Counted from the first letter of the stretch, positions 26,631-58,867 are shown. The stretch: 64,000 nt of DNA from Victivallaceae bacterium (GCA_024405735.1 JAKSOF010000011.1:1-64000), one strand, 5' to 3'. Translations and numbers: made by a program. Notes: generated by a model not told the origin, from the sequence alone.

Positions 26631-28097
26631 ATGTTTGAGGTCTTGGGAGACAAACTGCACGATGTATTCAAGCGTCTCCGCGGGGAAAGCCGGTTGACGG
26701 AATCCAATATCGCGGACGCACTGAAAGAGATCCGGCTCGCATTGCTGGATGCCGACGTCAATCTGGAGATCGCGACGGAATTCGTCGATTCCGTCCGGGA
26801 GGGATGCCTCGGGAGCGACGTGTTGAGAAGCGTCACGCCCGGTCAGCAGGTCATCAAAATCGTCCACGACAAACTGGTCGAACTGCTCGGCTCCTCCGCC
26901 GCCGAATTGAAACTTGACCGCAAACCGGCGGTCGTGATGCTGGTCGGCCTCCACGGCTCCGGCAAGACGACGACGGCGGGAAAACTGGCGCTTCACCTCA
27001 AAAAGCAGGGCAAAAAAGTCCTGCTCGTGGCGGGCGACGTCTACCGTCCCGCCGCCATCGACCAGTTGGAGATCATCGGCAAGGAAATCGGAGTTCCCGT
27101 CTATTTCGACCGCACCAGCGTCAACGTTGCGGCGATCGCGCTCAACGCGGTGGAAAGCGCCGCCAGAGAGGGTTTCGACGCCGTGTTGGTCGATACGGCG
27201 GGCAGATTGCAGATCGACGATACGATGATCCAGGAACTGGTGCGCATCCGCGGCGCGGTGCGTCCCGACGAAATATTGCTGGTCGCCGACGCCGCGCTCG
27301 GTCAGGAAGCGGTTTCGGTCGCTGAACATTTCCACAAAGCGCTGGATCTGACCGGTTTCATCCTGACGAAACTTGACGGCGACGCCCGCGGCGGCGCCGC
27401 GCTCACGATCCGCAAAGTGACGCAAGTGCCGGTCAAATTCGTCGGTGCGGGCGAAAAACTCGACCAGCTGGAAGTCTTTTTCCCCGACCGCATGGCGGGA
27501 CGCATCCTCGGAATGGGCGACGTCGTTTCGCTCGTCGAAAAGGCGGCGGCGCAAATCGACGAGGCGGAAGCGAAAAAACTGCAGGAAAAACTGCGGAAAA
27601 ATCAATTCGACTACAACGATTTCCTGTCGCAACTCAAACAGCTCGGCCGTCTCGGCGGCGTCGAAGCGCTGATGCGCTTTTTGCCCGGCGGCAGACAGTT
27701 GCAGAATGCGCTTTCGAGCGTCGATATGAAACAATTCGGCAGGATGGAGGCGATCATCCAGTCGATGACCAAGAAAGAGCGCGCCAACCCCGATCTGCTG
27801 GATTTCAGCCGCCGCAAACGCATCGCCAAAGGCGCGGGCGTCCCGGTGGAAACCGTCGGCAATCTCGTCAAACAGTTTGAAACGATGCGCAAAATGATGA
27901 AGCAAACGGGCGCGCTCGGCAAGATGATGACGCCCGGCGCGATGGGGACGATGCCCGCCGCCATGCCCGCGATGCCGGGGATGCGCGGAATGTTCAGCGC
28001 GCCCGGTCAAATCTCCAAAAAAGAGCAGGAACGCCGCAAGAAACTCGCCAAAATGGCACGCAAAGAGCGTCAAAAACAACGCAGGAGAAAAAAGTAA
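26631..28097 (+). CDS. ffh: Signal recognition particle protein
   Basis: 488-residue SRP54 GTPase that binds 4.5S RNA and signal sequences and delivers nascent membrane proteins to FtsY. The N domain is residues 1-95; the G domain has the P-loop GLHGSGKTT (106-114), DTAGRLQID near 187 and TKLDGDARGG near 245. The C-terminal M domain is Met/Gly/Pro-rich with a basic tail ending KRRKK. AAGGGG precedes the ATG. It leads a plus-strand run whose later genes are envelope related; the 2-bp gap to the next gene implies co-transcription. Confidence 0.96.
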   Translation: MFEVLGDKLHDVFKRLRGESRLTESNIADALKEIRLALLDADVNLEIATEFVDSVREGCLGSDVLRSVTPGQQVIKIVHDKLVELLGSSAAELKLDRKPAVVMLVGLHGSGKTTTAGKLALHLKKQGKKVLLVAGDVYRPAAIDQLEIIGKEIGVPVYFDRTSVNVAAIALNAVESAAREGFDAVLVDTAGRLQIDDTMIQELVRIRGAVRPDEILLVADAALGQEAVSVAEHFHKALDLTGFILTKLDGDARGGAALTIRKVTQVPVKFVGAGEKLDQLEVFFPDRMAGRILGMGDVVSLVEKAAAQIDEAEAKKLQEKLRKNQFDYNDFLSQLKQLGRLGGVEALMRFLPGGRQLQNALSSVDMKQFGRMEAIIQSMTKKERANPDLLDFSRRKRIAKGAGVPVETVGNLVKQFETMRKMMKQTGALGKMMTPGAMGTMPAAMPAMPGMRGMFSAPGQISKKEQERRKKLAKMARKERQKQRRRKK

Positions 28098-28099
28098 CT

Positions 28100-28903
28100 A
28101 TGTTCGGATTTCTGGTCGCACTCGCCGTCGCCTGCGCCGCCGCCGCGGCAATGGTGAAAACCCACGCCTGTTCCAACGGCTGGGCGGTATTTTATTCGGT
28201 CGCGCTGCTGCTCGTCGTGCAACTCGTCATCGGGCTCGTCATCCGCCGTCTGATGAAAAGCAAACAGGACGAGATCCAGAACGTGATGCTGAAAGCGCAG
28301 GAAAAGATCAACCGCCAGATCACGATCTTTCAGCGCCGCCAGATGTCGAGTATGAAAGACGCGCAGGAGCAACTTTTCAAAATGCAGAGCGAGGCGGTTC
28401 GCAAAGTCCTCGCCATTCTCGACAAATGCAAATCTCTCACTTACTGGAACTGGATGCTGGAGCGTCAGCTCAACACGATGCGCGTTCAGCTTTATTTCCA
28501 GTTGAAGGAATTCAAAAAAGTCGATGCGCTGTTGCCCAAGTGCATTTTGATGGATCAGCAGACGCTCGCGATCAAACTGGTCCGCCTCTACCGCAACGAA
28601 GATGCGGGGCTTGACCGTTTCTATCAGAAAAAATGCGCCAAGACCAAGAGCGATGCCGCCGCTTTCCTCGCTTCGGTCTACGCGTGGATCAAATTAAAGC
28701 AGAACGACGTTGAAAAAGCGACGCAGGCGCTGGTCGCGGCGCGCAAAAAAAGCGACAACGGCGTCCTCGCGGAAAACTGCGCAAAACTCGTCAACGGCAA
28801 GGCGAAACAATTCAGCAACGCCGGTTTCGGCGATATGTGGTATGCCCTGATGCTGGAAGAACCCAAAATGAAAGTACAGCGTCAGGAGCGTCTCTACCGG
28901 TGA
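28100..28903 (+). CDS. Uncharacterised membrane protein with coiled coil
   Basis: 267-residue protein with two N-terminal hydrophobic stretches (about residues 2-18 and 30-48), a charged coiled coil near 52-100 (KSKQDEIQNVMLKAQEKIN) and an alpha-helical tail that looks like TPR helices (Leu/Ala spacing around 150-240). I do not recognise the family. It sits tightly between ffh and mlaE (2 and 4 bp gaps), so it probably shares their transcript; a function in membrane protein or lipid handling would be a guess. Confidence 0.75.
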   Translation: MFGFLVALAVACAAAAAMVKTHACSNGWAVFYSVALLLVVQLVIGLVIRRLMKSKQDEIQNVMLKAQEKINRQITIFQRRQMSSMKDAQEQLFKMQSEAVRKVLAILDKCKSLTYWNWMLERQLNTMRVQLYFQLKEFKKVDALLPKCILMDQQTLAIKLVRLYRNEDAGLDRFYQKKCAKTKSDAAAFLASVYAWIKLKQNDVEKATQALVAARKKSDNGVLAENCAKLVNGKAKQFSNAGFGDMWYALMLEEPKMKVQRQERLYR

Positions 28904-28907
28904 AAAA

Positions 28908-29714
28908 ATGAAGCACGATGTCAACAGAGGCCTGATCCGGCTCGCACTGCATTACCGGGATTTCCGGGAAAAAATGCGCGCACCGCTCGAATTCATCGGA
29001 GCGGTTTCCGGAGCGCTTCCTTTGCTTTTCCGCAAAAAGGGATTGCGGAAAAAGGAATTCCGCTATTATCTCGACCTCTGCGGCGTACAGTCGCTTCCGA
29101 TCACGCTGCTCATCACATTTTTGATGGGATGCGTCCTCGGCATCCAGTCCGCCTTGCAGTTGACCAAATTCGGCGCGGAAATCTTTACCGCCGACCTCGT
29201 CGGCTTCGCGGTGCTGAAGGAATTCGGTCCGCTGATGGTGGCGATCATCCTGACGGGCCGCGCCGGCTCCGCCTTTGCGGCGGAACTCGGCACGATGAAA
29301 GTCAACGAGGAGATCAGCGCGCTCGAAACGATGGGGATCCGCCCGGTCGGTTATCTGGTGCTTCCCAAATTGACGGCAATGGTGATCGCGATGCCGCTCT
29401 TGACCATCTTCGGTGATGTCGCCGGTATTTTCGGCGGACTTACCATCGGTATCACGCTGATGGATCTGCCCTTTGCCGCCTACTGGTCGCGCACGATCGA
29501 CGTCCTGGACGGCATCACGATGATGCTCGGCGTTTTCAAAAGCGTCGTTTTCGCCGTGCTGATCACGGTTTCCGGCTGTTATTACGGATTCCGCTCGTCC
29601 AGTGACGCGCAGGGAGTCGGACGCAGTGCGACGCAGGCGGTCGTCGCCTCGATCTTTTACGTCATCGTCGCCGATGCCATGCTGACGGTGCTTTACTCTT
29701 TCATCGGGTACTGA
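28908..29714 (+). CDS. mlaE: Phospholipid ABC transporter permease MlaE
   Basis: 268-residue inner-membrane permease of the Mla/Tgt2/MCE type, which moves phospholipids between inner and outer membrane. About five to six hydrophobic segments are present. The conserved ILTGRAGSAFAAELGTMKVNEEISALETMGI (split here for length) begins near residue 116, with Glu-Leu-Gly-Thr-Met-x-Val and a Glu-rich coupling helix diagnostic for MlaE. The operon order permease-ATPase-MCE protein matches classic mlaE/F/D, but the order E-F-D places the permease first. No mlaB or mlaC is nearby. Confidence 0.92.
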   Translation: MKHDVNRGLIRLALHYRDFREKMRAPLEFIGAVSGALPLLFRKKGLRKKEFRYYLDLCGVQSLPITLLITFLMGCVLGIQSALQLTKFGAEIFTADLVGFAVLKEFGPLMVAIILTGRAGSAFAAELGTMKVNEEISALETMGIRPVGYLVLPKLTAMVIAMPLLTIFGDVAGIFGGLTIGITLMDLPFAAYWSRTIDVLDGITMMLGVFKSVVFAVLITVSGCYYGFRSSSDAQGVGRSATQAVVASIFYVIVADAMLTVLYSFIGY

Positions 29715-35395: not shown

Positions 35396-36369
35396 AGCAA
35401 GTCGGCGATCAGGATGCCGCCGAGCGTCAGCACGCCGGAAAAGAAAAAAATCGCCATCTGCAACGGGTAATCGCGGCTCGACAACGCGAGGATCGACAAA
35501 TTTCCCATGCCCGGAATGTTGAAAATGTATTCGACGATCACGCTTCCCGCGACCAGCGACGGCAAAAGACCGCCGAAAAGGGTGATCAAAGTGATCAGCG
35601 CGTTGCGGAACGCGTGACGCCAGACGACTTCGCATTCGGCAACCCCCTTGGCGCGCGCGCCGCGGACGAAATCGCTGTGAAGCACCTCCAGCATCCCCGC
35701 GCGCGCATAGCGCGACAATCCGGCGAATCCGGCATAGGAAAGGGAAAAGACCGGCAGAATATAGCGGCAGATGCTCTCCCACTGCAATTGCCAGACGGAC
35801 TTTACGCCGTCGTCGACGACTTCCAGTCCCTGCAACGGAAAGAGCGGCAAGACGCCGCCGTCGCACAAAAGCGTCTGCAACAAAAGCCCCACCCACATCA
35901 CGGGCAGTGAATAGAGGAAAAAAAGCACAAATTCGATCGCGCGGTCGGCAACCGTCCCGTTGTGTTTCGCGCTGAAAACGCCGAGCGGGATCGCGAGAAA
36001 ATAGGTGACGAGCACCGCCCAGAAATTCAGCGAGAGCGTATTGGGCAGTTTTTCGGCGATCAGCGCCGTCACCGGACGTCCCGGATCGACCGAAGCGGAA
36101 ACGCCGAAATCGCCGTGAAGCACGATGCCGCCGAGCCAACAGGCGAATCCGACGATGATCGGGCGGTCGAGATGAAGTTCCTTGCGCAACTGCATATTTC
36201 CGGCAAGCCCGGAACGTGCGTCGACGTTTCCGGCGGAAGCGGAACTTTCGAGCATTGCACTGCGCGTCGGGTCGCCCGGCGCCAACCGCAACAGAAAATA
36301 GCTGACAAAAAGGATCGCAAAAAGTGTCAACAACGCAAGCGTCAACCGTTTGGCAAGATAGCAGATCAT
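35356..36369 (-). CDS. ABC oligopeptide-type permease (DppB/OppB family), orphan
   Basis: 337-residue inner-membrane permease for peptide or nickel importers. It begins MICYLAKRLTLALLTLFAILFVSYFLLRLAPGDP, the DppB N-terminus, and has the cytoplasmic EAA-like loop (YARAGMLEVLHSDFVRGARAKG near 240) and the terminal DPRIDLAK pattern. A complete importer also needs DppC, two ATPases and a binding protein, none of which follow; the gene ends against an opposite-strand gene, so the rest must be elsewhere or lost. The start overlaps the chromate-transporter gene as ATGA. Confidence 0.85.
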   Translation of the reverse strand: MICYLAKRLTLALLTLFAILFVSYFLLRLAPGDPTRSAMLESSASAGNVDARSGLAGNMQLRKELHLDRPIIVGFACWLGGIVLHGDFGVSASVDPGRPVTALIAEKLPNTLSLNFWAVLVTYFLAIPLGVFSAKHNGTVADRAIEFVLFFLYSLPVMWVGLLLQTLLCDGGVLPLFPLQGLEVVDDGVKSVWQLQWESICRYILPVFSLSYAGFAGLSRYARAGMLEVLHSDFVRGARAKGVAECEVVWRHAFRNALITLITLFGGLLPSLVAGSVIVEYIFNIPGMGNLSILALSSRDYPLQMAIFFFSGVLTLGGILIADLLYMAADPRIDLAK

Positions 36370-36914
36370 AACAACGCCGAAAGCGCCCCCAGCGCCGCGC
36401 CGCAGACGATCAGACGGAATGCGGAAATTTTACTTTTCAGCATCAAAATAAGCGTTATTCCGAAAACGGCAAGCGAGATCCAGTCGATTTTGAGCGTGCC
36501 TTCTTTTTCCGCGAAAAGCGAAAGCCGCAAAAAGAGCAATGCGGCGTAAGTGATCATCCCGACGGCGGCGGGACGCACCCCCGTCATCAATCCGCGCACG
36601 AAAAAACTGTCGCGGTACTTCCGCAATCCGGCAACGGCGAGCGAGGCGAGAAACAACGTCGGCAAAACGAAACCTGCAGTCGCCGCAAGACTGCCCCATA
36701 CGCCGCCTTCCAGATAACCGCTGTAAGTCGCCGTGTTGATCCCGACGGGGCCCGGCGTCAGTTGCGCGATGGAAACAAGATTGAGAAATTCATTGGCGGC
36801 AAGGATCCCGCGCTGTGTCACCAGATCGGCAAAAAGCAACGGGATCAGAATATATCCGCCGCCGAAGCAAAGCAATGAAAAGCCGGAAAAGCGCAAAAGG
36901 AGCGTCAAAATCAT
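36366..36914 (-). CDS. Chromate transporter family, short form (second half)
   Basis: 182-residue CHR-family membrane protein with about five to six hydrophobic segments. It shows the conserved FxGGGYIxIPL and QLTPGPVGINTATYSG (near residue 50) of CHR domains. Many bacteria encode chromate transporters as two short proteins that act together, and this pair overlaps by four bases. Members export chromate or, more often in anaerobes, an unproven anion. Overlap with the permease start (ATGA) makes a tight operon. Confidence 0.85.
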   Translation of the reverse strand: MILTLLLRFSGFSLLCFGGGYILIPLLFADLVTQRGILAANEFLNLVSIAQLTPGPVGINTATYSGYLEGGVWGSLAATAGFVLPTLFLASLAVAGLRKYRDSFFVRGLMTGVRPAAVGMITYAALLFLRLSLFAEKEGTLKIDWISLAVFGITLILMLKSKISAFRLIVCGAALGALSALL

Positions 36915-37483
36915 TTGCCGTCCTCCTCTTTCATCCGGACGCGCAACGCGAGCATTCCAAGCGGGATCGCGCCGAAAAAGATCCAGACGCTCGGCACATG
37001 AAAGAGGATCAGGACCAACGCCGCCATTGCAAGCGCGATCTCAAACGCCGCGCGGCAGTTTTTCCGGAACATCCGGTATGCCGTACAGACGATCAATGCG
37101 GTCACGGCGGCGCGGACTCCGTTGAAAAGCCCGACAAGAAGCGGATTCTGCGGATCAAGCGAGGGGAAAAAGACCGCGATCAGCAAAATGATGACGAAAC
37201 TCGGCAGCACCGCCCCCGCCAATGCGGAAACCGCGCCGGGAAATCCGGCGACTTTCATCCCGACGTAAACGGCGCAGTTGGCGGCGACGACGCCCGGTAT
37301 CGTCTGCGAAACGGCGACCATATCGAGCACTTCCTCTTCGGAAAGAAGTTTGCGCTTGACGGCAAAGGTCTCCTCGATGACGGGGAGCATCGCCAGCCCT
37401 CCGCCGAGCACGAAAAGCGCGATCCGGGCAAAAGTCCAGAATAAAATCGCGCAACGGCGCAATTTTTCGGACCAATCTGTCAT
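36911..37483 (-). CDS. Chromate transporter family, short form (first half)
   Basis: 190-residue CHR-family partner of the next gene. FVLGGGLAMLPVIEETF near 23 and SQTIPGVVAANCAVYVG near 60 are the diagnostic CHR segments; roughly six hydrophobic stretches follow. The ATG at 37483 is preferred to an in-frame TTG at 37504 because CGGGA lies nine bases upstream. It begins 23 bp after PFOR in the same direction and probably uses its transcript. Confidence 0.85.
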   Translation of the reverse strand: MTDWSEKLRRCAILFWTFARIALFVLGGGLAMLPVIEETFAVKRKLLSEEEVLDMVAVSQTIPGVVAANCAVYVGMKVAGFPGAVSALAGAVLPSFVIILLIAVFFPSLDPQNPLLVGLFNGVRAAVTALIVCTAYRMFRKNCRAAFEIALAMAALVLILFHVPSVWIFFGAIPLGMLALRVRMKEEDGK

Positions 37484-37506
37484 CTTTTTGTTTCCCGTTG
37501 GCAAAA

Positions 37507-50796: not shown

Positions 50797-53517
50797 TTAT
50801 TTCTTCTCGATCAACACGATCGTATCTTCTTTTACATCCGTAAGGACATTGCCCTCAACTCCCTTGATCTTCCATCCTTCGGGGAGATCGACGGTGACTT
50901 TTTTCGCCGGATTCCAGAAAAAGAGCGCGCCGCCTTTTTCGCCGATCCAGCTGGTGCCGAAGGGGGTTTCACGGACATAGGGCATTCCGACATTGTCAAG
51001 CGCGTCATTGAAAGGCTTGGCGAGATCCATCGCGCGTCTGCCGCGAGTGAGAAATTCGGGGACGGCGTCGATGTCGAGCAGAATGGGACCCATATTGAAA
51101 CTGACGAAACAGCCGTACATCCCGGTACGAAAAGCGTCGAGCGAAACGCCGCCGCGCAAGTCCGCGCTCGGCGAGGAACCGACGAGGACAAATTCATTGC
51201 CGACGAAATTCTGCGTGTACAAGTGCGCGCGATACCAGTATTCGTCGAGGACAAGGGGATTCTGTCCCTCGATGGAAACGCGCGCGCCCTCATTCTGCAA
51301 AAAGCGGTAGAATTTGATCTGCGACGCCAGTCCGTTGGGGCAATCTTTCGTCGCGTAGTTGACGCATTGCGCCGCCGTACCGTCCATATCGCGGTAAATG
51401 GCGCCGACGCCGCCCTCTTTGATCGCTTTGCTCAAAATGCCGCGATACCAGTCGTAAAATTCCTGATTGTTGACGTCGATGACGGGATAGGTCTTGCCGC
51501 CGTAGCAGAAAATTTTGCCTTTGGGGTCGCGGACGAACCATTCGGGATGCGCGGTATAGATCCAGGTGGTGTCGCCCTGCGTGTAACTTCCGGCAGACCA
51601 GATCCACGGCTTGATGCCGCCGTCGCGCATCGTCTTGTAAACGCCGTTGATGCGGCTATCCGCCGCGATCTTGTCGATGGGGGATTCGGGCATCTGAACG
51701 TGCATATAGCGGTAGCCCTTTTGGACGGCAAGCGCGATGAGTTTTTCCAGTTCGCTCTGGGAGATGTACTCATAACGTGCAGCGGGGACGACGGGAAGTT
51801 CGGCGAGATCCGCCTTTTGCCGCAAGTTGTGACGCTGAAACTGATACATCGCAAGATAGTCGTGATGAGGACGTTCCGCCCCCTTGCCGAACCAGTGCCA
51901 GTAAGGCGCCGTCTCAAAGGGTGCGTAAATGCGTCCGAGCGGCATCGTGCGGATGTTGGTGATCGACTTTGCGCCTTTGGCGCGCTTCATCTGGACGAAA
52001 GTCGCCGCCGGACGATCGACCGCGCCGAAGTAAACGGCGTCCTTGCCGACGAGCATTTCAAAGGGCTGACCGGAGCCGAAAAAACTCCAGTTGGAAGTGT
52101 CGGAAGACACCTTGCCCGACATATCGAAAACGGAATAACCGCGCGGCGGAGAATAGCAGGAAAGGCGGTGCGCATAAAGCGCGTCGGGCATATCGATCTC
52201 GCTATTGAAATCGAGTTGACCGACGGGAATTTCACACGAAACGAGTTTCACCGAGTCGGAAATACCGTCGAAACTTCTGCCGTCCAATTCCATTTTTCCG
52301 GCGACGAAACGCCATTGCATTTCGGCGTTTTCCGCGCGGTAAACGGCGACGGCGGCATTGCCGTCGGCAATCAGCTTGTCAAACTGCCATTTCAGATTCG
52401 CCGCCTTGACGTTTTCGGTGCTGACAGTGCCCTCCGCCGCCGCGACGTCGTAACCGACGCTTTCCGCCGCCGATTTGAAAACGGGGACTTGGAAATTTCG
52501 GACAAGCGGCTGATCCCCGCCATAGTAAAATTCAACGCTGCCGGAGGGAAGGACGCGCACTTTCGCGCCGTTGGCAAAAGTCGCGGTATCGCCGGAAATC
52601 TGCGGCGTCGCGGAAACTTCCGTCACGCCCCAGACGGGCGCGGCGAGCGAAACGGAAACTTCGCCGACTTCCTTGCGTTCCGGGATCGCCGGGATCTTGA
52701 CGATGTGCTTGGCGGCGTCCAGTTTTTTCAACCCGGCGGATTCCTTGCCGATTGCGACAAAAAAGGCGTTGGCATATGCCCAGCCGGAAAACGATTTCAA
52801 ATTCGAGGAATCGACGTCTTTGATGATCGAGCCGTTGAAATAGGTGACGCTTCCCTTGCCGAGTGTGCGGCGGGCGAGAAAGGGGGTAACGGCATCATCG
52901 TCGAGCAGACTCAACGCTTCCGCGCCGGGCAAGAGAGAAACTTCGCGGAAAGCGGGGACGGGAATACGCTCCGGAAAAACGCTGTAATCCTCTCCTGCGG
53001 GACGCTTGGCGTAATGTTTTTCCCAGACCATTCCCCCTGCCATCGTGACCGGAGAAAGTTCACCGAGGGCATCGCAGGTCGTACCGCAAAGGAGGACGTG
53101 TCCGCCGTTTTCAACATACTTTTTCAACGCCGCAACTCGTTCCGGCGTAAAGAGTTTCTGCAAATTCTCCTCCGACATCGACGAAAAGATGACAAGCCGG
53201 TAGGAAAAAAGTTTCTTGAAAGCGGGGGTAATGCCGTCAAAAGGTTTCGGCTCGACCTTGTCCGCCATATGCACGCGGACGGGCGCGCCGCCGAGGCCGT
53301 CGAGATAACGGCCGTCCATCTGCACGATGCGACCGCCGCTCTGGAGAAAAAGTTTGCTGTTTTCCGATGCCTGCCACGGACGGCCGCCGCAGAAAAAGAG
53401 GATGGTGGGGCCGGAATCTCCGACGCGCCGGGGCATTTTGATCTTGTTGGGCGGCTCCGCCGCAAAAAGAAGCGAAAACGCGGCGGCGAAAAAAGCGATG
53501 ATCCATAACTTTTTCAT
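50797..53517 (-). CDS. Large secreted multi-domain protein with TIM-barrel C-terminus
   Basis: 906-residue exported protein. The signal peptide (MKKLWIIAFFAAAFSLLFA) and a GAGGAGG site settle the start at 53517. Residues about 35-170 resemble a GATase-like or ThuA-type alpha/beta domain (GDSGPTILFFCGGRPW, ALKKYVENGGHVLLCG). The middle 180-560 is beta-rich. From about 620 to 860 a TIM-barrel pattern of clan GH-D type appears (DVNNQEFYDWYRGILSKAI, then GAIYRDMDGTA, and a late Trp-rich part). I think it acts on polysaccharide outside the cytoplasm, but I cannot place it in a GH family. The adjacent rhaA hints at a deoxysugar-rich substrate. Confidence 0.7.
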   Translation of the reverse strand: MKKLWIIAFFAAAFSLLFAAEPPNKIKMPRRVGDSGPTILFFCGGRPWQASENSKLFLQSGGRIVQMDGRYLDGLGGAPVRVHMADKVEPKPFDGITPAFKKLFSYRLVIFSSMSEENLQKLFTPERVAALKKYVENGGHVLLCGTTCDALGELSPVTMAGGMVWEKHYAKRPAGEDYSVFPERIPVPAFREVSLLPGAEALSLLDDDAVTPFLARRTLGKGSVTYFNGSIIKDVDSSNLKSFSGWAYANAFFVAIGKESAGLKKLDAAKHIVKIPAIPERKEVGEVSVSLAAPVWGVTEVSATPQISGDTATFANGAKVRVLPSGSVEFYYGGDQPLVRNFQVPVFKSAAESVGYDVAAAEGTVSTENVKAANLKWQFDKLIADGNAAVAVYRAENAEMQWRFVAGKMELDGRSFDGISDSVKLVSCEIPVGQLDFNSEIDMPDALYAHRLSCYSPPRGYSVFDMSGKVSSDTSNWSFFGSGQPFEMLVGKDAVYFGAVDRPAATFVQMKRAKGAKSITNIRTMPLGRIYAPFETAPYWHWFGKGAERPHHDYLAMYQFQRHNLRQKADLAELPVVPAARYEYISQSELEKLIALAVQKGYRYMHVQMPESPIDKIAADSRINGVYKTMRDGGIKPWIWSAGSYTQGDTTWIYTAHPEWFVRDPKGKIFCYGGKTYPVIDVNNQEFYDWYRGILSKAIKEGGVGAIYRDMDGTAAQCVNYATKDCPNGLASQIKFYRFLQNEGARVSIEGQNPLVLDEYWYRAHLYTQNFVGNEFVLVGSSPSADLRGGVSLDAFRTGMYGCFVSFNMGPILLDIDAVPEFLTRGRRAMDLAKPFNDALDNVGMPYVRETPFGTSWIGEKGGALFFWNPAKKVTVDLPEGWKIKGVEGNVLTDVKEDTIVLIEKK

Positions 53518-53542
53518 AAAACCTCCTCGGTTGACGAAATAT

Positions 53543-54577
53543 CTATTTGGATAATTTTTGAACCTTTGCCTCTGCTGCGGCATATCCATTTTCGGCGGCT
53601 TTTTGATACCACTGCAATGCCATTTCTTTATCTGCGTCTACGCCCCAGCCATTTTCATAGCATAAACCAATATTGTATTGGGCTGTCGGAACTTCTTCGA
53701 TCGTTTGAAAAATACGAAATGCTTCAGCGCGATCCTTTTTTACTCCGATTCCGTTTAAATACAGTAACCCGAGATGATTTTTGAAAGCCGGATCGTCGTT
53801 GGTTTCCGAAACTTTTTTCACCAAGGCGAATAAATCGGAATTACGCATAAAAATCTCATTGCCGATGGCAAAGGATGCAAGATAAGCAGCCGCATCTGCA
53901 TTTCCGGCACGTTCGGCAAGATAAGCATAATAAACCGCTTCGCGTCCCATTCCGTATTTCTGATAAAACTGTGATTTTCCCCACAAGTCCTGCGGATCAA
54001 CACCTTCCGCTTCCGCAGAGGGATAATCCAATGCCTCCAGAGCATCACGAAATTCCGCGATGCTGAAAAGGTTTTTCAGCACTTCGCTTTTGTTCGCGGC
54101 ACACTCCTCCGGGGTCGGGCGACGACTGCCCGAAAAACGGCGGCTGTATGCCTGAAAGAAACGCGGCTGGGCACCATTACGCGCAAACAGCTGCCCAAAA
54201 TACACGATCCCCGGAGCCCTTACCACAACAATCATCCGGTTATCCAAATAATAACCGTCTTCACAATCTAAAACCGTCGTCTTGTCTTCAATGATTCTGA
54301 CAATCCGCACATTGTGGTCGTACTGATTATCAAAATCGGCGGAATCAGACAAAATCTTGTAGTGATGCGCGGCAAAAGAAGCTCTCAATAACGCATCTGC
54401 TTCTTTATAAGCGGACGCATGTATTTCAATCGGCGCCATCCGTTTGTATTCTTCTTCATCCACTTGCCCGTAGACGGGAATATCGTACAGATGATCATGC
54501 GTACAACCGGCAAAAAGCACAAGCACTGCGATGGACATCCATAAAAATCCACCGCCGAATAATATATTTTTTTTCAT
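53543..54577 (-). CDS. Sel1-repeat lipoprotein
   Basis: 344-residue lipoprotein. The signal ends in VLFAGC, so the Cys near residue 24 is likely lipidated. Middle residues 60-220 form a mixed domain I do not recognise; the C-terminal part holds two Sel1 repeats (LGLLYLNGIGVKKDRAEAFRIF and IGLCYENGWGVDADKEMALQWY). The ATG at 54577 shares TGATG with the preceding stop; a GTG just before is possible. It is AT-rich and closes the four-lipoprotein operon. Sel1 repeats recruit partners, so this may tie the complex together. Confidence 0.75.
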   Translation of the reverse strand: MKKNILFGGGFLWMSIAVLVLFAGCTHDHLYDIPVYGQVDEEEYKRMAPIEIHASAYKEADALLRASFAAHHYKILSDSADFDNQYDHNVRIVRIIEDKTTVLDCEDGYYLDNRMIVVVRAPGIVYFGQLFARNGAQPRFFQAYSRRFSGSRRPTPEECAANKSEVLKNLFSIAEFRDALEALDYPSAEAEGVDPQDLWGKSQFYQKYGMGREAVYYAYLAERAGNADAAAYLASFAIGNEIFMRNSDLFALVKKVSETNDDPAFKNHLGLLYLNGIGVKKDRAEAFRIFQTIEEVPTAQYNIGLCYENGWGVDADKEMALQWYQKAAENGYAAAEAKVQKLSK

Positions 54578-55980
54578 CACTTCAATTCCTTGAGCATCGT
54601 ATTTTCATCCGCTTTTTTGATGAAGCGATCTGTCAAAACATCACGACATGTCTCCATCGCCTGTCTGGCATTACGTCCCTGTGACATCATCGGCAAATGG
54701 ATGACCTGTAAATTGGCATTGTCTGCAACGGTAATCGTACCGACAGCCATTCCCATGACATCAAAATTATAATAACCCGTCGTCATCAAATTATATGTCC
54801 CGGGAGCAAGTTTCAACGGAATAATATAGAACTTACCCGGCAGATTATGCCAGAATCGACCATCTGCATGCGGATTCATCATACTTCCGATAAGCCATGC
54901 CGTCCCGCCAAGGATAAAACATCCGCCTCCGGAACAAAAAAGCGATAAGCCGACAACATTATTCAAGCCGCAAGTTGCACCGGCAACCATCAGCCCCGTC
55001 CCCGCGATCAGCAAGATATTACGACTGATTTCCATTCCCTTTTTTGCCATCGCCTTATCGGCAAGCACAGTATCCATCAAACGACCGCCGCGAGTGGTCG
55101 CCTGATAATCAATATCAGCCAAGTTATTAGCGGCAAACAACATATTTGAATCGGAAATTTGCAATCCGAGCCGATCAAAGAAATTTTTTCCGCGAACAAT
55201 CGAACGGACTTCCTCATATTCTCCGGTGCAAACGACTTCCGGACCATCGCCGGTCCAGACAACAAGCAACACATTGGGATCAACCTGCGTCAGATGATCA
55301 AAGCAAGTACCGGAAATCCGGTTGCCGTTTTCATCGTTGAGGTTGAAACCGCATTTGGCGATTGCAGCTATCATACTGCGCAAATATTCGGCGGCATCAT
55401 CCTGTCGCCCCGCCTTTATATTGGCAAGATATCCGAGATAGGATAACAATGCGTAATCTTCTACCGCTTCCTCCGAATTGGAGTCGGCATCGGCGAGCAA
55501 GCCGTTTTTTACTGCCCGAATCGCATCGTCATATTCGCCATTCTGAATAAAACTCATGGCAAGAAGCGCATACAAGGTGGCGCGCTCATAGGAATCCCCG
55601 TGATAAACCTTGTTGACTTCACCATGCCACACGCTCATCGCTTTTTCCGCAGCTTCTTTGTCAAAAAGGACTTCCAAATCCTCCTGCAGTTTAATCATAA
55701 GCTCGTGAGCTTCGGCTGTTTTATTCTGCATCAGCAATGTGGAGATCAATTCCAACTGATACAGCGGACGGCTTACAGTCCGTTCCTGACACAAGTTTCT
55801 AATTAATCTTTCAGCTTCAGAGTAATTTCCGCGAACAAACTGCTCGTGTGCGGTTGCATTTTGCTGCTCCATCGCGGCAAGTTCTTCTTCGGATTTCTGG
55901 ACAAAATCGCCTTGATAAGAGTTACACCCGGTTATGATGCAACATATTACCGCGAATATCCCCAAAAGAGATTTACGCAT
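54577..55980 (-). CDS. TPR lipoprotein, COG3014-like
   Basis: 467-residue lipoprotein (MRKSLLGIFAVICCIITGCN; Cys19 lipidated). Residues about 40-200 carry TPR-like helix pairs (EQFVRGNYSEAERLIRNLC, LLAMSFIQNGEYDDAIRAVKNGLLAD). Near 320-375 there are two hydrophobic stretches (NILLIAGTGLMVAGATCG ... CFILGGTAWLIGSMM). In several proteobacteria a COG3014-type lipoprotein is encoded beside YcfL- and LpoB-like lipoproteins; this synteny supports the call. The function is unknown. It lies 2 bp after ycfL-like and overlaps the next start. Confidence 0.75.
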   Translation of the reverse strand: MRKSLLGIFAVICCIITGCNSYQGDFVQKSEEELAAMEQQNATAHEQFVRGNYSEAERLIRNLCQERTVSRPLYQLELISTLLMQNKTAEAHELMIKLQEDLEVLFDKEAAEKAMSVWHGEVNKVYHGDSYERATLYALLAMSFIQNGEYDDAIRAVKNGLLADADSNSEEAVEDYALLSYLGYLANIKAGRQDDAAEYLRSMIAAIAKCGFNLNDENGNRISGTCFDHLTQVDPNVLLVVWTGDGPEVVCTGEYEEVRSIVRGKNFFDRLGLQISDSNMLFAANNLADIDYQATTRGGRLMDTVLADKAMAKKGMEISRNILLIAGTGLMVAGATCGLNNVVGLSLFCSGGGCFILGGTAWLIGSMMNPHADGRFWHNLPGKFYIIPLKLAPGTYNLMTTGYYNFDVMGMAVGTITVADNANLQVIHLPMMSQGRNARQAMETCRDVLTDRFIKKADENTMLKELK

Positions 55981-55982
55981 AT

Positions 55983-56453
55983 TCAATCCCCTAAAACGAT
56001 TTGATAATCGACAGCATTTGCAACCGGACAAACGACCTTGTAGACATAAGTTTCGCCGCGACCGATCGAAATCGTAGAACCATTGGTCTGGTACAATTCA
56101 TTCGAGCGCGATCTCGCACCTTCGTAAAAATGCGTTTGCACCCGCAATTGCAAAATTTCCGGTGCGCGGCAAAACCAGTTAGTCCAACTCACCGGACCGC
56201 GATTGCGAATCCCCGTTTCCACGACCAATTGTCCGGCATCATTCCTGTAGCTTCGTTCATAAGTGATTTCCACATATTCAACAGCTGAAAGAGAACCGAA
56301 TGCGAGAACAAAACGCTTTGGTCTGATAAAAATAATGGAACTTTCCTGATTCAAATCCTCTTCTGTTACACGGTCAACATTTGTCGTTGTTCCGCAACCG
56401 CACAAAACCAGCGCCACAAACCAAAGCACAATAATACGGAAAAATTTTTTCAT
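55983..56453 (-). CDS. YcfL-like lipoprotein
   Basis: 156-residue small lipoprotein. The signal ends in LVLCGCG (two candidate Cys, 19 and 21; lipobox around LCGC). The rest is a beta-rich domain with the YcfL/DUF1425 pattern, which includes a conserved Arg-Gly-Pro-x-x-Trp (NRGPVSWTNWFC) and GxGETYVYK near the end. GGAGG precedes the ATG. In E. coli ycfL sits beside lpoB (ycfM), and here too its gene follows an LpoB-like gene by 18 bp. Confidence 0.75.
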   Translation of the reverse strand: MKKFFRIIVLWFVALVLCGCGTTTNVDRVTEEDLNQESSIIFIRPKRFVLAFGSLSAVEYVEITYERSYRNDAGQLVVETGIRNRGPVSWTNWFCRAPEILQLRVQTHFYEGARSRSNELYQTNGSTISIGRGETYVYKVVCPVANAVDYQIVLGD

Positions 56454-56471
56454 AGGATATTTTCCTCCCGA

Positions 56472-57635
56472 TTAACGGTAAACGCCCGACTGGATGGTAA
56501 CTCTTTTCACTTCGTAGCCGTCTTCCCAAAGGATCTCATTTTCTTCGGGAGAGTTCAGTTGTACACTTATGAGCAGATAATCCTGAGAGATTCCGTTGGC
56601 ACGTTGAGCCAATCCGGAAATTTCCCCGGAAAGGATGAAATCCGCTTTCCCGCTGTTGTCGGAGATGCGCTGATCAATGAGCATCATTTTTTCAAAAACA
56701 GCCAACTTGGTTTTCGCATCGACGAGCATAACATTGAGCCGTTTATTGACATTGGGATTGATCTGCAACGCTTGATTGCGATATAATTCATAGAGATGAG
56801 TTTCAAGGGCTTTGATTTCACCGCCGCTATTGGAAATACTTGTCACATCGACATTATTCTGACTGACAGTCGTGATCTGAGGATTGGATTTCGTGAGAAA
56901 ATCGGTCGCAATCAGTAGCGATTGTCCCGCTTTGACCCGCGCATCGACAACTTTGATGTAATCAGCCAAATTGATGATACCCTCGGTTTTCATCGTTTCG
57001 GCGATAAACTGTCCGGTCAGGTAATAATCGGCTCCAGAGGTTTCTCCTGGCATGAGAAATTGAATTTTTCCATTGGAAGCATTGACCACTTCCGAACGCA
57101 ACATAGCGGTGAAACTATCGCCATTCATATTCACTAAATTCGTATTGAGCGCCGGAACAACCGCAATTTTCAGCGTTTTACCGCTGTTGACAACGGGAGA
57201 GGCGGCCAATGCGGCAGCGACCTCCTGCAATTTTTTTTGCAATTGTTTTTCCTGACGATCCTGCAAAATTTCTCTGCGGGCGGCAGAAGTTTTTTCATTG
57301 TTGCTGAGAAAACGCACCTTGCCGTGACCGAAACGGTTCAATTCCAACCGAAGACGTTTTGCGAAAAGGTTGCGGTCAATAAAAAAACGACTCTCGTTTT
57401 TGAAATCGGCAATCTTTATCATCACCGCGCTGTCCGCAGTCTGAATTTCCGGCAACGCTAAAATTGCCGGCGCCATTTTTGAAGCTACGCTGCGAATGTC
57501 TTCACTGGATATTCCGCAGTCGATCACATCCCGATCAACCGGGATCGCATTGTTTTGCGGTTCAATTCGCGGCGAGGCACACCCCCCAAGAACAACCGCG
57601 ATCACACCACACGCAAGGACATATTTTTGTTTCAT
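56472..57635 (-). CDS. LpoB-like lipoprotein with repeated domain
   Basis: 387-residue lipoprotein, about twice the length of E. coli LpoB (213 residues), which activates penicillin-binding protein PBP1b from the outer membrane. Cys19 (VLGGC) is the lipid site. Residues 40-125 match the LpoB N-terminal half (IADFKNESRFFIDRN ... GKVRFLSNN). Residues 155-225 give a second beginning and ADYYLTGQF. Residues 298-388 hold a further copy of the LpoB end (ADFILSGEISGLAQRANG ... NEILWEDGYEVKRV). GGAG lies six bases before the ATG at 57635. The repeat may be a fused LpoB dimer; a real PBP target is not identified. Confidence 0.75.
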   Translation of the reverse strand: MKQKYVLACGVIAVVLGGCASPRIEPQNNAIPVDRDVIDCGISSEDIRSVASKMAPAILALPEIQTADSAVMIKIADFKNESRFFIDRNLFAKRLRLELNRFGHGKVRFLSNNEKTSAARREILQDRQEKQLQKKLQEVAAALAASPVVNSGKTLKIAVVPALNTNLVNMNGDSFTAMLRSEVVNASNGKIQFLMPGETSGADYYLTGQFIAETMKTEGIINLADYIKVVDARVKAGQSLLIATDFLTKSNPQITTVSQNNVDVTSISNSGGEIKALETHLYELYRNQALQINPNVNKRLNVMLVDAKTKLAVFEKMMLIDQRISDNSGKADFILSGEISGLAQRANGISQDYLLISVQLNSPEENEILWEDGYEVKRVTIQSGVYR

Positions 57636-57688
57636 CATTTTCTCCTTTCATTGGATTTCTATTATTTGGAAAACACTTTGATTGTCGT

Positions 57689-58867
57689 TTATTTTTCCAC
57701 GGGGATCGCGCGCGCGCCGTCGCCGATACTGCAGATGATGATCTCGGGGAAAACTTTTTGCTGCAGTTTGAAAGCTTCGCCGACGCGTTGCGCGTAGACT
57801 TCGGCATCTTCCTCCTTGACGAGATGAATGGTGATGCCGCCGAAACCGCCGCCGGAAAGACGGGCTCCGAGACAGCCGGGGATCGTGTGCGCGAGTTCGA
57901 CGAGGTAATCCAATTCCGGCGAACTGTTTTCAAAGTTGACGCGGCTCGATTCGTGGGAGTCAAAAAGCAGTTGTCCGAAACCCGCGACGTCGCCATTGCC
58001 GAGAAGTTTCTCCGCCTGCATCACGCGGGTGCATTCGCCGACGACGTGCAGGGCGCGGCGGTAGGCGCGAAGCGGGAGTTTCTCCTTGGCGGCGGCAAGT
58101 TGCTCCAGCGACACGTCGCGCAACGCCTTGACGCCGGGATAAAGTTTTTGCAAAATCGCCGCGGCTTCCTCGCAGTCGGCGCGGCGGGTGTTGTATTCGG
58201 AATCGACGAGGTTGTGCTTTTTCATCGAATTGATGACGACGATCGCGTAACCGGGAGGCAACGCAACGGTGCGCAACACTTCGGCGGTGCGGAAGTCGCT
58301 CAAAATCATCGCGTCTTTTTTGCCGAAGATCGAACTGAATTGATCGAGAAGCCCCGTATGCAGTCCGAGGTAGTTGTTTTCGACCCCCTGCCCGGCGCGC
58401 GCCCATTCGACCTTGGGCAGGTCGATCTGAAACGCCTGCGCCAGCGCGTATCCGGCGGCGACTTCAAGCGCCGCGGAACTCGACATCCCGGCGGAAAGCG
58501 GCACACAGCTTTCGATCGCCGCGTCAAATCCGGTGATCGACTTGACGCCGCGTTTGACCAACTCCTTGACCATTCCCTTGATATAGCGGCTACCGTTGCG
58601 GTCGGGCGCGGCATTGAGATCGGAAATGTCAAAAAGCATTCTCGCGTTATCGCGGAAGTCAATCAAACGGCACGTCTTTCCGGGTACGGGACGCAAGGCG
58701 AAACGCGTCGTCTGGGCGACCGCGCAGGAAAGGACGAAACCCTGATTGTAGTCGGTATGATTGCCAAGGATTTCCAGTCTGCCGGGCGCCTGTGCGGCGG
58801 CGGTGGCGGGAACTCCGTAAAAATCCTGAAACTTTTTCAGAAAACTCGCGTTGGTGACTTCAGCCAT
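57689..58867 (-). CDS. galK: Galactokinase
   Basis: 392-residue GHMP kinase that phosphorylates D-galactose. It has the galactokinase signature APGRLEILGNHTDYNQGF near residue 23 (most have GRVNLIGEHTDY), the phosphate loop PLSAGMSSSAALEVA near 125 and GGGFGGITIHLV near 340. The ATP and sugar residues are in place; the first motif is slightly different. It lies 10 bp after lpxK. Together with the GH36 enzyme at 0.2-2.4 kb it fits galactose use through the Leloir pathway; galT and galE are not in this window. Confidence 0.93.
   Translation of the reverse strand: MAEVTNASFLKKFQDFYGVPATAAAQAPGRLEILGNHTDYNQGFVLSCAVAQTTRFALRPVPGKTCRLIDFRDNARMLFDISDLNAAPDRNGSRYIKGMVKELVKRGVKSITGFDAAIESCVPLSAGMSSSAALEVAAGYALAQAFQIDLPKVEWARAGQGVENNYLGLHTGLLDQFSSIFGKKDAMILSDFRTAEVLRTVALPPGYAIVVINSMKKHNLVDSEYNTRRADCEEAAAILQKLYPGVKALRDVSLEQLAAAKEKLPLRAYRRALHVVGECTRVMQAEKLLGNGDVAGFGQLLFDSHESSRVNFENSSPELDYLVELAHTIPGCLGARLSGGGFGGITIHLVKEEDAEVYAQRVGEAFKLQQKVFPEIIICSIGDGARAIPVEK

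Follow-up and report, generated by a model that had tools for sequence, protein, structure and literature searches.

In E. coli, the lipoprotein LpoB is an activator of PBP1b, a cell-wall enzyme, and the known contact of LpoB is the UB2H/GTase region of the class A PBP. The E. coli protein is a single-domain LpoB with a proline-rich N-terminus, its gene is adjoined by the preceding ycfL, and neither a COG3014 gene nor a counterpart of the fourth gene described below adjoins this pair. In other bacteria class A PBPs are regulated by the TPR proteins LpoP, LpoA, and CpoB, of which LpoP of Pseudomonas aeruginosa is an outer-membrane lipoprotein linked to wall synthesis (PMC7267771). In the literature covered, which excludes subscription papers, no paper was found for COG3014 itself and a single one for DUF1425, the family of YcfL. 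The protein families are not new; what the same literature was not found to contain is a compact transferable operon of this kind, an LpoB with a domain inside its own domain, or LpoB genes in genomes that systematically lack class A PBPs.

The window analyzed here, a 64-kb stretch of the genome of a Victivallaceae bacterium (G000), contains four consecutive genes arranged head to tail (Table 1). All four products carry a signal peptide and a lipobox Cys, which bears out the four lipoproteins named in a preliminary description of this DNA. Outer-membrane sorting was judged by the absence of Asp after the lipobox Cys, a rule taken from E. coli. Shine-Dalgarno-like motifs precede the LpoB gene (AGGAGA) and the YcfL gene (GGGAGG). 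The start of the COG3014-like gene given in the ORF list (56031) lies upstream of the likely ATG, and the end at 55980 was used instead. As in E. coli, the two families LpoB and YcfL are adjacent; the cassette differs in its doubled LpoB and in having a host without a class A PBP.

Table 1. Features of the four-lipoprotein cassette, in positions of the 64-kb window.
Feature	Position	Strand	Basis
LpoB-like, long, 388 aa	56472-57638	-	PF13036
YcfL/DUF1425-like, 156 aa	55983-56453	-	profile comparison and operon context
COG3014-like, 467 aa	54577-55980	-	profile comparison and operon context
Fourth lipoprotein with Sel1 repeats, 344 aa	53543-54577	-	PF08238
Presence/absence segment	53531-57709	.	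flanks joined in sister G026, ~35 bp between galK and next gene

The AT-rich island that had been noticed at this position holds on the scale of the whole four-gene unit, with 46.1% G+C for 53543-57638 vs. a mean of 56.3% (sd 1.5) when 4-kb stretches from the rest of the window are measured (z = -6.8). The hand counts given earlier for two 60-nucleotide stretches proved exact when recomputed (35% for 54241-54300 and 70% for 58441-58500). Codon composition is not uniform across the neighborhood either, the GC3 of the island genes being 0.45-0.51 vs. 0.62-0.78 for the remaining genes of the window (YcfL was not scored). The maximum-scoring low-GC segment of the window (53489-57696) has edges that coincide with those defined by synteny. 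No RNA element was found, and a promoter scan returned no more sites than in shuffled sequence. Elsewhere in the window, 35501-37500 and 27501-29000 show a strong AT skew (up to +0.28) at normal G+C.

The long LpoB matches Pfam PF13036 (E 1.2e-14, 54.9 bits, cut-off 22.3) in two separated pieces, and all 16 long LpoB homologues match this family. Against the NCBIfam equivalog TIGR02722, which stands for functional LpoB, the window protein scores 48.5 bits, below the cut-off of 110.55, and its match to the single sequence of E. coli LpoB is limited to the signal region. The outer LpoB domain comprises approximately aa 45-126 and 332-388, and a second, diverged LpoB-like domain lies between them (~aa 155-328, with a poorly ordered stretch at ~aa 221-292), so that some 180-200 residues interrupt an otherwise normal LpoB domain. 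When joined, the outer pieces match a profile of single-domain LpoB proteins that contains E. coli LpoB over its full length (188 columns, 100%, E 2.5e-41). The insert aligns with the leading two thirds of this profile at 96.9% (E 1.4e-10) and also with the outer LpoB domain itself (96.0%, E 4.5e-9), and a further weak match piece lies where the last strands are expected. Consistently across genomes, single-domain relatives match the long-LpoB profile at 5-126 and 324-381 only. The AlphaFold2 model (mean pLDDT 71.5, pTM 0.51) has an order of strands and helices that fits two domains. Its best Foldseek match in the PDB is the C-terminal domain of LpoB (4q6l, E 2.6e-4) with poor superposition (rmsd 25), and its neighbors are LpoB, CsgG, GNA1162, and PelC; a PDB sequence search with the long-LpoB profile gave no match. 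Because outer pieces and insert both match the LpoB profile and the order of elements agrees, these comparisons at the level of sequence show that a paralogous LpoB domain sits within an LpoB domain. The repetition of domains reported in the preliminary description is thus upheld, not as a simple tandem but as a second domain interrupting the first. A domain inserted in its own paralogue is an unusual evolutionary object.

The YcfL-like protein of the window has no Pfam match, and none of 14 YcfL members of the cassettes passes the PF07233 cut-off. A profile of 15 such members nevertheless matches DUF1425/YcfL members (92.6%, E 4.6e-7) and the YcfL family of the sister species (97.1%, E 6e-11), of which the tested member passes the DUF1425 cut-off; by profile comparison the window protein is a diverged DUF1425 relative. 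The COG3014-like protein likewise has no Pfam family match of its own; its label was taken over from the preliminary description, and homologues were assigned by their sequence and their place in the operon. Its AlphaFold2 model (pLDDT 85.9, pTM 0.81) predicts a TPR superhelix followed by a beta domain with a hydrophobic helical hairpin (~aa 301-367) and then by a C-terminal part, and most of its PDB matches are TPR proteins. The hairpin consists of two long helices with glycine/alanine-rich hydrophobic stretches that are conserved in an alignment of 20 homologues; its hydropathy peaks of 1.67 and 1.59 are moderate, and several homologues show strong hydrophobicity in just one of the two stretches. 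The protein shares its TPRs with LpoP, from which it differs in the remaining domain make-up and in that LpoP acts on PBP1B, missing here. The C-termini of the COG3014 proteins at loci L009, L013, L071, and L072 bear EF-hand-like repeats (DxNGDGELS, DxNGDGRLS), a hint of calcium binding. In the fourth protein, Sel1 repeats (PF08238, E 2.2e-17) come after a conserved N-terminal domain (~aa 1-180), which matches the fourth genes of other cassettes at 97-99% in profile comparison. This Sel1 tail is found in the window and in G111 and is absent from several other cassettes. An LpoB-like nature of the fourth gene was also considered and found no support, its matches being mostly limited to the signal peptide.

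The search for homologous clusters showed that the four genes do not occur independently in related genomes. The order long LpoB-YcfL-COG3014-fourth gene is kept in 12 genomes (G000, G110, G111, G117, G074, G075, G034, G107, G313, G297, G272, and G345) with differing flanking genes, and the operon recurs in other Lentisphaeria and in other lineages of the phylum. Among the loci inspected, the full order is seen in the window and at L009, L013/L082, L031-L035, and L069-L072, the first three genes at L008 and L014, and LpoB-YcfL only at L036 (at a contig end) and L073. Across the 137 genomes of the order, ten have a full long LpoB, ten a cassette-grade full-length COG3014, and nine have both (hypergeometric p ~3e-12, uncorrected for relatedness), both exceptions lying at contig ends. 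A Geobacteraceae bin carries the operon without the fourth gene on a contig that also has glnE (PF03710), a gene not known to be typical of Lentisphaeria, though a small chance of a binning error is left. A concatenated tree of the cassette rejects the family of the window as one clade (p 4e-6). It also rejects a joint placement of carriers from other classes apart from the order (p 7e-6), two of which, G313 and G297, form a nested sister branch to the cassettes of the window, G111, and G117. The conflict of this tree with taxonomy means that the operon has been transferred horizontally.

Transfer was also suggested by the comparison with G026, a sister species whose MraY is 91% identical and which is the closest relative compared. 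The flanking genes are conserved in G026 (81-87% identical DNA) and are only ~35 bp apart there, which makes for a clean presence/absence difference of 4.2 kb. The insertion site showed no integrase, tRNA, repeats, target-site duplication, or mobile element. The congener G022, whose genome is fragmented, carries COG3014, the fourth gene, and the end of YcfL at a contig end beside a valyl-tRNA-synthetase-like ORF, i.e., at a different site; identity with the window is 51-54% for COG3014 and YcfL and 27% for the fourth gene. Since G022 holds cassette genes beside the window genome, at least two of the 34 genomes of the genus carry the cassette, at different sites; the long LpoB was found in no other member of the genus among these 34. 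On the basis of the empty site and the tree conflict, which support the transfer proposed in the preliminary description, we infer that the cassette was probably acquired recently and by horizontal transfer, as a gain rather than through repeated loss in relatives. The alternative of vertical inheritance, with loss in most relatives, a low G+C due to relaxed selection, and no recent transfer, could draw on the fact that the nearest cassettes come from G111 and G117 of the window's own family (LpoB 59% and 56% identical), and on a tree of MraY which places G000 in one clade with these two. A test of G000, G111, and G117 as a group in that tree carries no weight, since the group as tested did not include the cassette-free G026. 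It is improbable in view of the clean empty site in so close a sister, of the G022 cassette, which lies elsewhere and is no closer in sequence despite the shared genus, and of the lineages from other classes nested among the cassettes of the order. Composition also speaks against it: the cassette of the window is 10.2 points poorer in G+C than its flanks, whereas in 13 other carriers the difference ranges from -6.2 to +4.2 points with a mean of about -0.3. Weak selection, which had been offered to explain the low G+C, is an unlikely cause, since the cassettes of these carriers follow their flanks. With a G+C of 36% and 46% for the cassettes of G111 and G117, the simplest reading is a donor of moderate G+C within the family of the window.

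It should be noted that G026, although empty at this site, has a cousin operon elsewhere (L117:5587-11029) which encodes CsgG-like (PF03783, E 1.3e-11), COG3014-like, YcfL (PF07233, E 1.5e-13), and single-domain LpoB proteins (PF13036, E 6.8e-27); similar operons are present in other members of the order (L118-L121). Cousin operon and cassette share the COG3014, YcfL, and LpoB families (97-99% in profile comparison) and differ in that the cousin has a single-domain LpoB placed after COG3014 and YcfL, and extra CsgG- and FlgT-like genes. None of the four window proteins matches CsgG family PF03783. The window LpoB resembles the CsgG/GNA1162/PelC/TolB-N fold proteins in the Foldseek proximity of its predicted model; CsgG is an oligomeric barrel pore, and the likeness is one of predicted fold only. 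The same searches that detect the cousin operon in G026 gave no match to it in the genome of the window, where the acquired cassette may thus have taken its place; displacement of a native operon is consistent with this result, which is no proof of it. Related arrangements were noted at other loci. At L010:10392-11333 (G039) a natural YcfL-LpoB gene fusion lies in a locus of 28% G+C beside separate LpoB, YcfL, and COG3014 genes. A CsgG/LpoB-like gene adjoins a COG3014-like gene on two plasmids (L046:3963-7341, Sphingomonas NZ_CP117027; L047:4331-5431, Marinobacter NC_017507), the COG3014-like genes of both being annotated as hypothetical or unannotated.

The function of the cassette was considered in relation to class A PBPs, a PBP1b-like partner having been proposed. 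No match to GT51 (PF00912) was found in the genome of the window (97% complete, 26 contigs), whose wall synthases are three SEDS proteins and two class B PBPs, nor was GT51 found in G026. Within the order GT51 occurs in 27 of 137 genomes, with no enrichment among carriers of the cassette (2/10 vs. 25/127; Fisher p = 1.0). Further evidence comes from family f25 of the same phylum, where all nine genomes with a single-domain LpoB, three of them single-contig, are without GT51. In the five f25 genomes inspected COG3014 lies beside or close to LpoB in every case and a YcfL-like gene was recognized in four (all but L074); these operons resemble the cassette in the adjoining LpoB, YcfL, and COG3014 genes and the missing GT51, and differ in that their LpoB has no second domain and no fourth gene was recognized. 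A PBP1b partner for the window LpoB was therefore rejected, there being no GT51 in its own genome or in most carriers, and as far as can be judged from the genome sequences a class A PBP for LpoB to activate is absent here. The cassette might still encode a classical PBP1b activator if the enzyme had been missed in the assembly, which is not entirely complete, or were supplied by a diverged glycosyltransferase, and some carriers do have GT51 (G074, G075, G272, G345, G297, and the Geobacteraceae genome). This explanation is largely refuted and very improbable, given that eight of the ten carriers in the order and the f25 genomes lack GT51 in a search that was positive in 27 genomes of the order and in 10 control genomes.

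Any action on wall synthesis would thus have to run via the SEDS proteins or class B PBPs. A reading in which the lipoproteins span the peptidoglycan to stimulate these synthases, replacing the missing class A pathway, is in line with membership in the LpoB family, with the presence of both kinds of enzyme in the genome, and with the precedent of LpoP, LpoA, and CpoB. We consider it rather unlikely, as the contact known for LpoB is on a class A PBP, wall genes are not consistently linked to the cassette in the neighborhoods of carriers, and the cassette is missing from nearly all species of the genus, in which the wall gene mraY was found in all four members tested. The compact, patchy, and horizontally spread nature of the island could also suit defense or phage-related cargo, for which there is the slightest likelihood of all: a PADLOC search gave no match above noise, and a defense-system identity was rejected on that ground; PHROG profiles matched in the Sel1 region only; the long LpoB was not found in phage or plasmid records, nor COG3014 in viral contigs.

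The reading that we prefer, to which we give about an even chance, is that of a horizontally spread complex of four outer-membrane lipoproteins with a COG3014 scaffold, a doubled-LpoB adaptor, and a target outside the class A PBPs. A compact operon would have been inserted between galK and the next gene, and its four products would assemble into a single complex at the periplasmic side of the outer membrane, as suggested by operon conservation only. The scaffold role would fall to the COG3014 protein, whose TPRs would offer a docking surface and whose hydrophobic helical hairpin would dip into the membrane. The doubled LpoB may act as an adaptor with two heads, standing in for the separate LpoB/CsgG-fold proteins that the cousin operon of the sister species encodes, and YcfL may be a small companion of LpoB, since ycfL adjoins lpoB in E. 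coli. The target could be outer-membrane transport or assembly of the CsgG type, or else a SEDS/class B PBP synthase, of which the former is slightly favored because cousin operons hold CsgG-like genes.

Genes such as these are labeled "penicillin-binding protein activator LpoB" in databases, and here, as throughout family f25, the same partners are present and the enzyme is missing. We suggest tentatively, at somewhat less than even probability, that LpoB, YcfL, and COG3014 are the core of an outer-membrane lipoprotein system that is both older and more widespread than the regulation of PBP1b and has no need of class A PBPs, that E. coli LpoB is a derived offshoot of it, and that the doubled-LpoB operon is a self-contained transferable version which displaced the native operon in this bacterium. 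The f25 genomes are a natural experiment in which the LpoB set exists without the textbook enzyme. With LpoB occurring beside its usual partners and without that enzyme, it becomes directly testable what the LpoB-YcfL pair and the COG3014 lipoproteins originally did.
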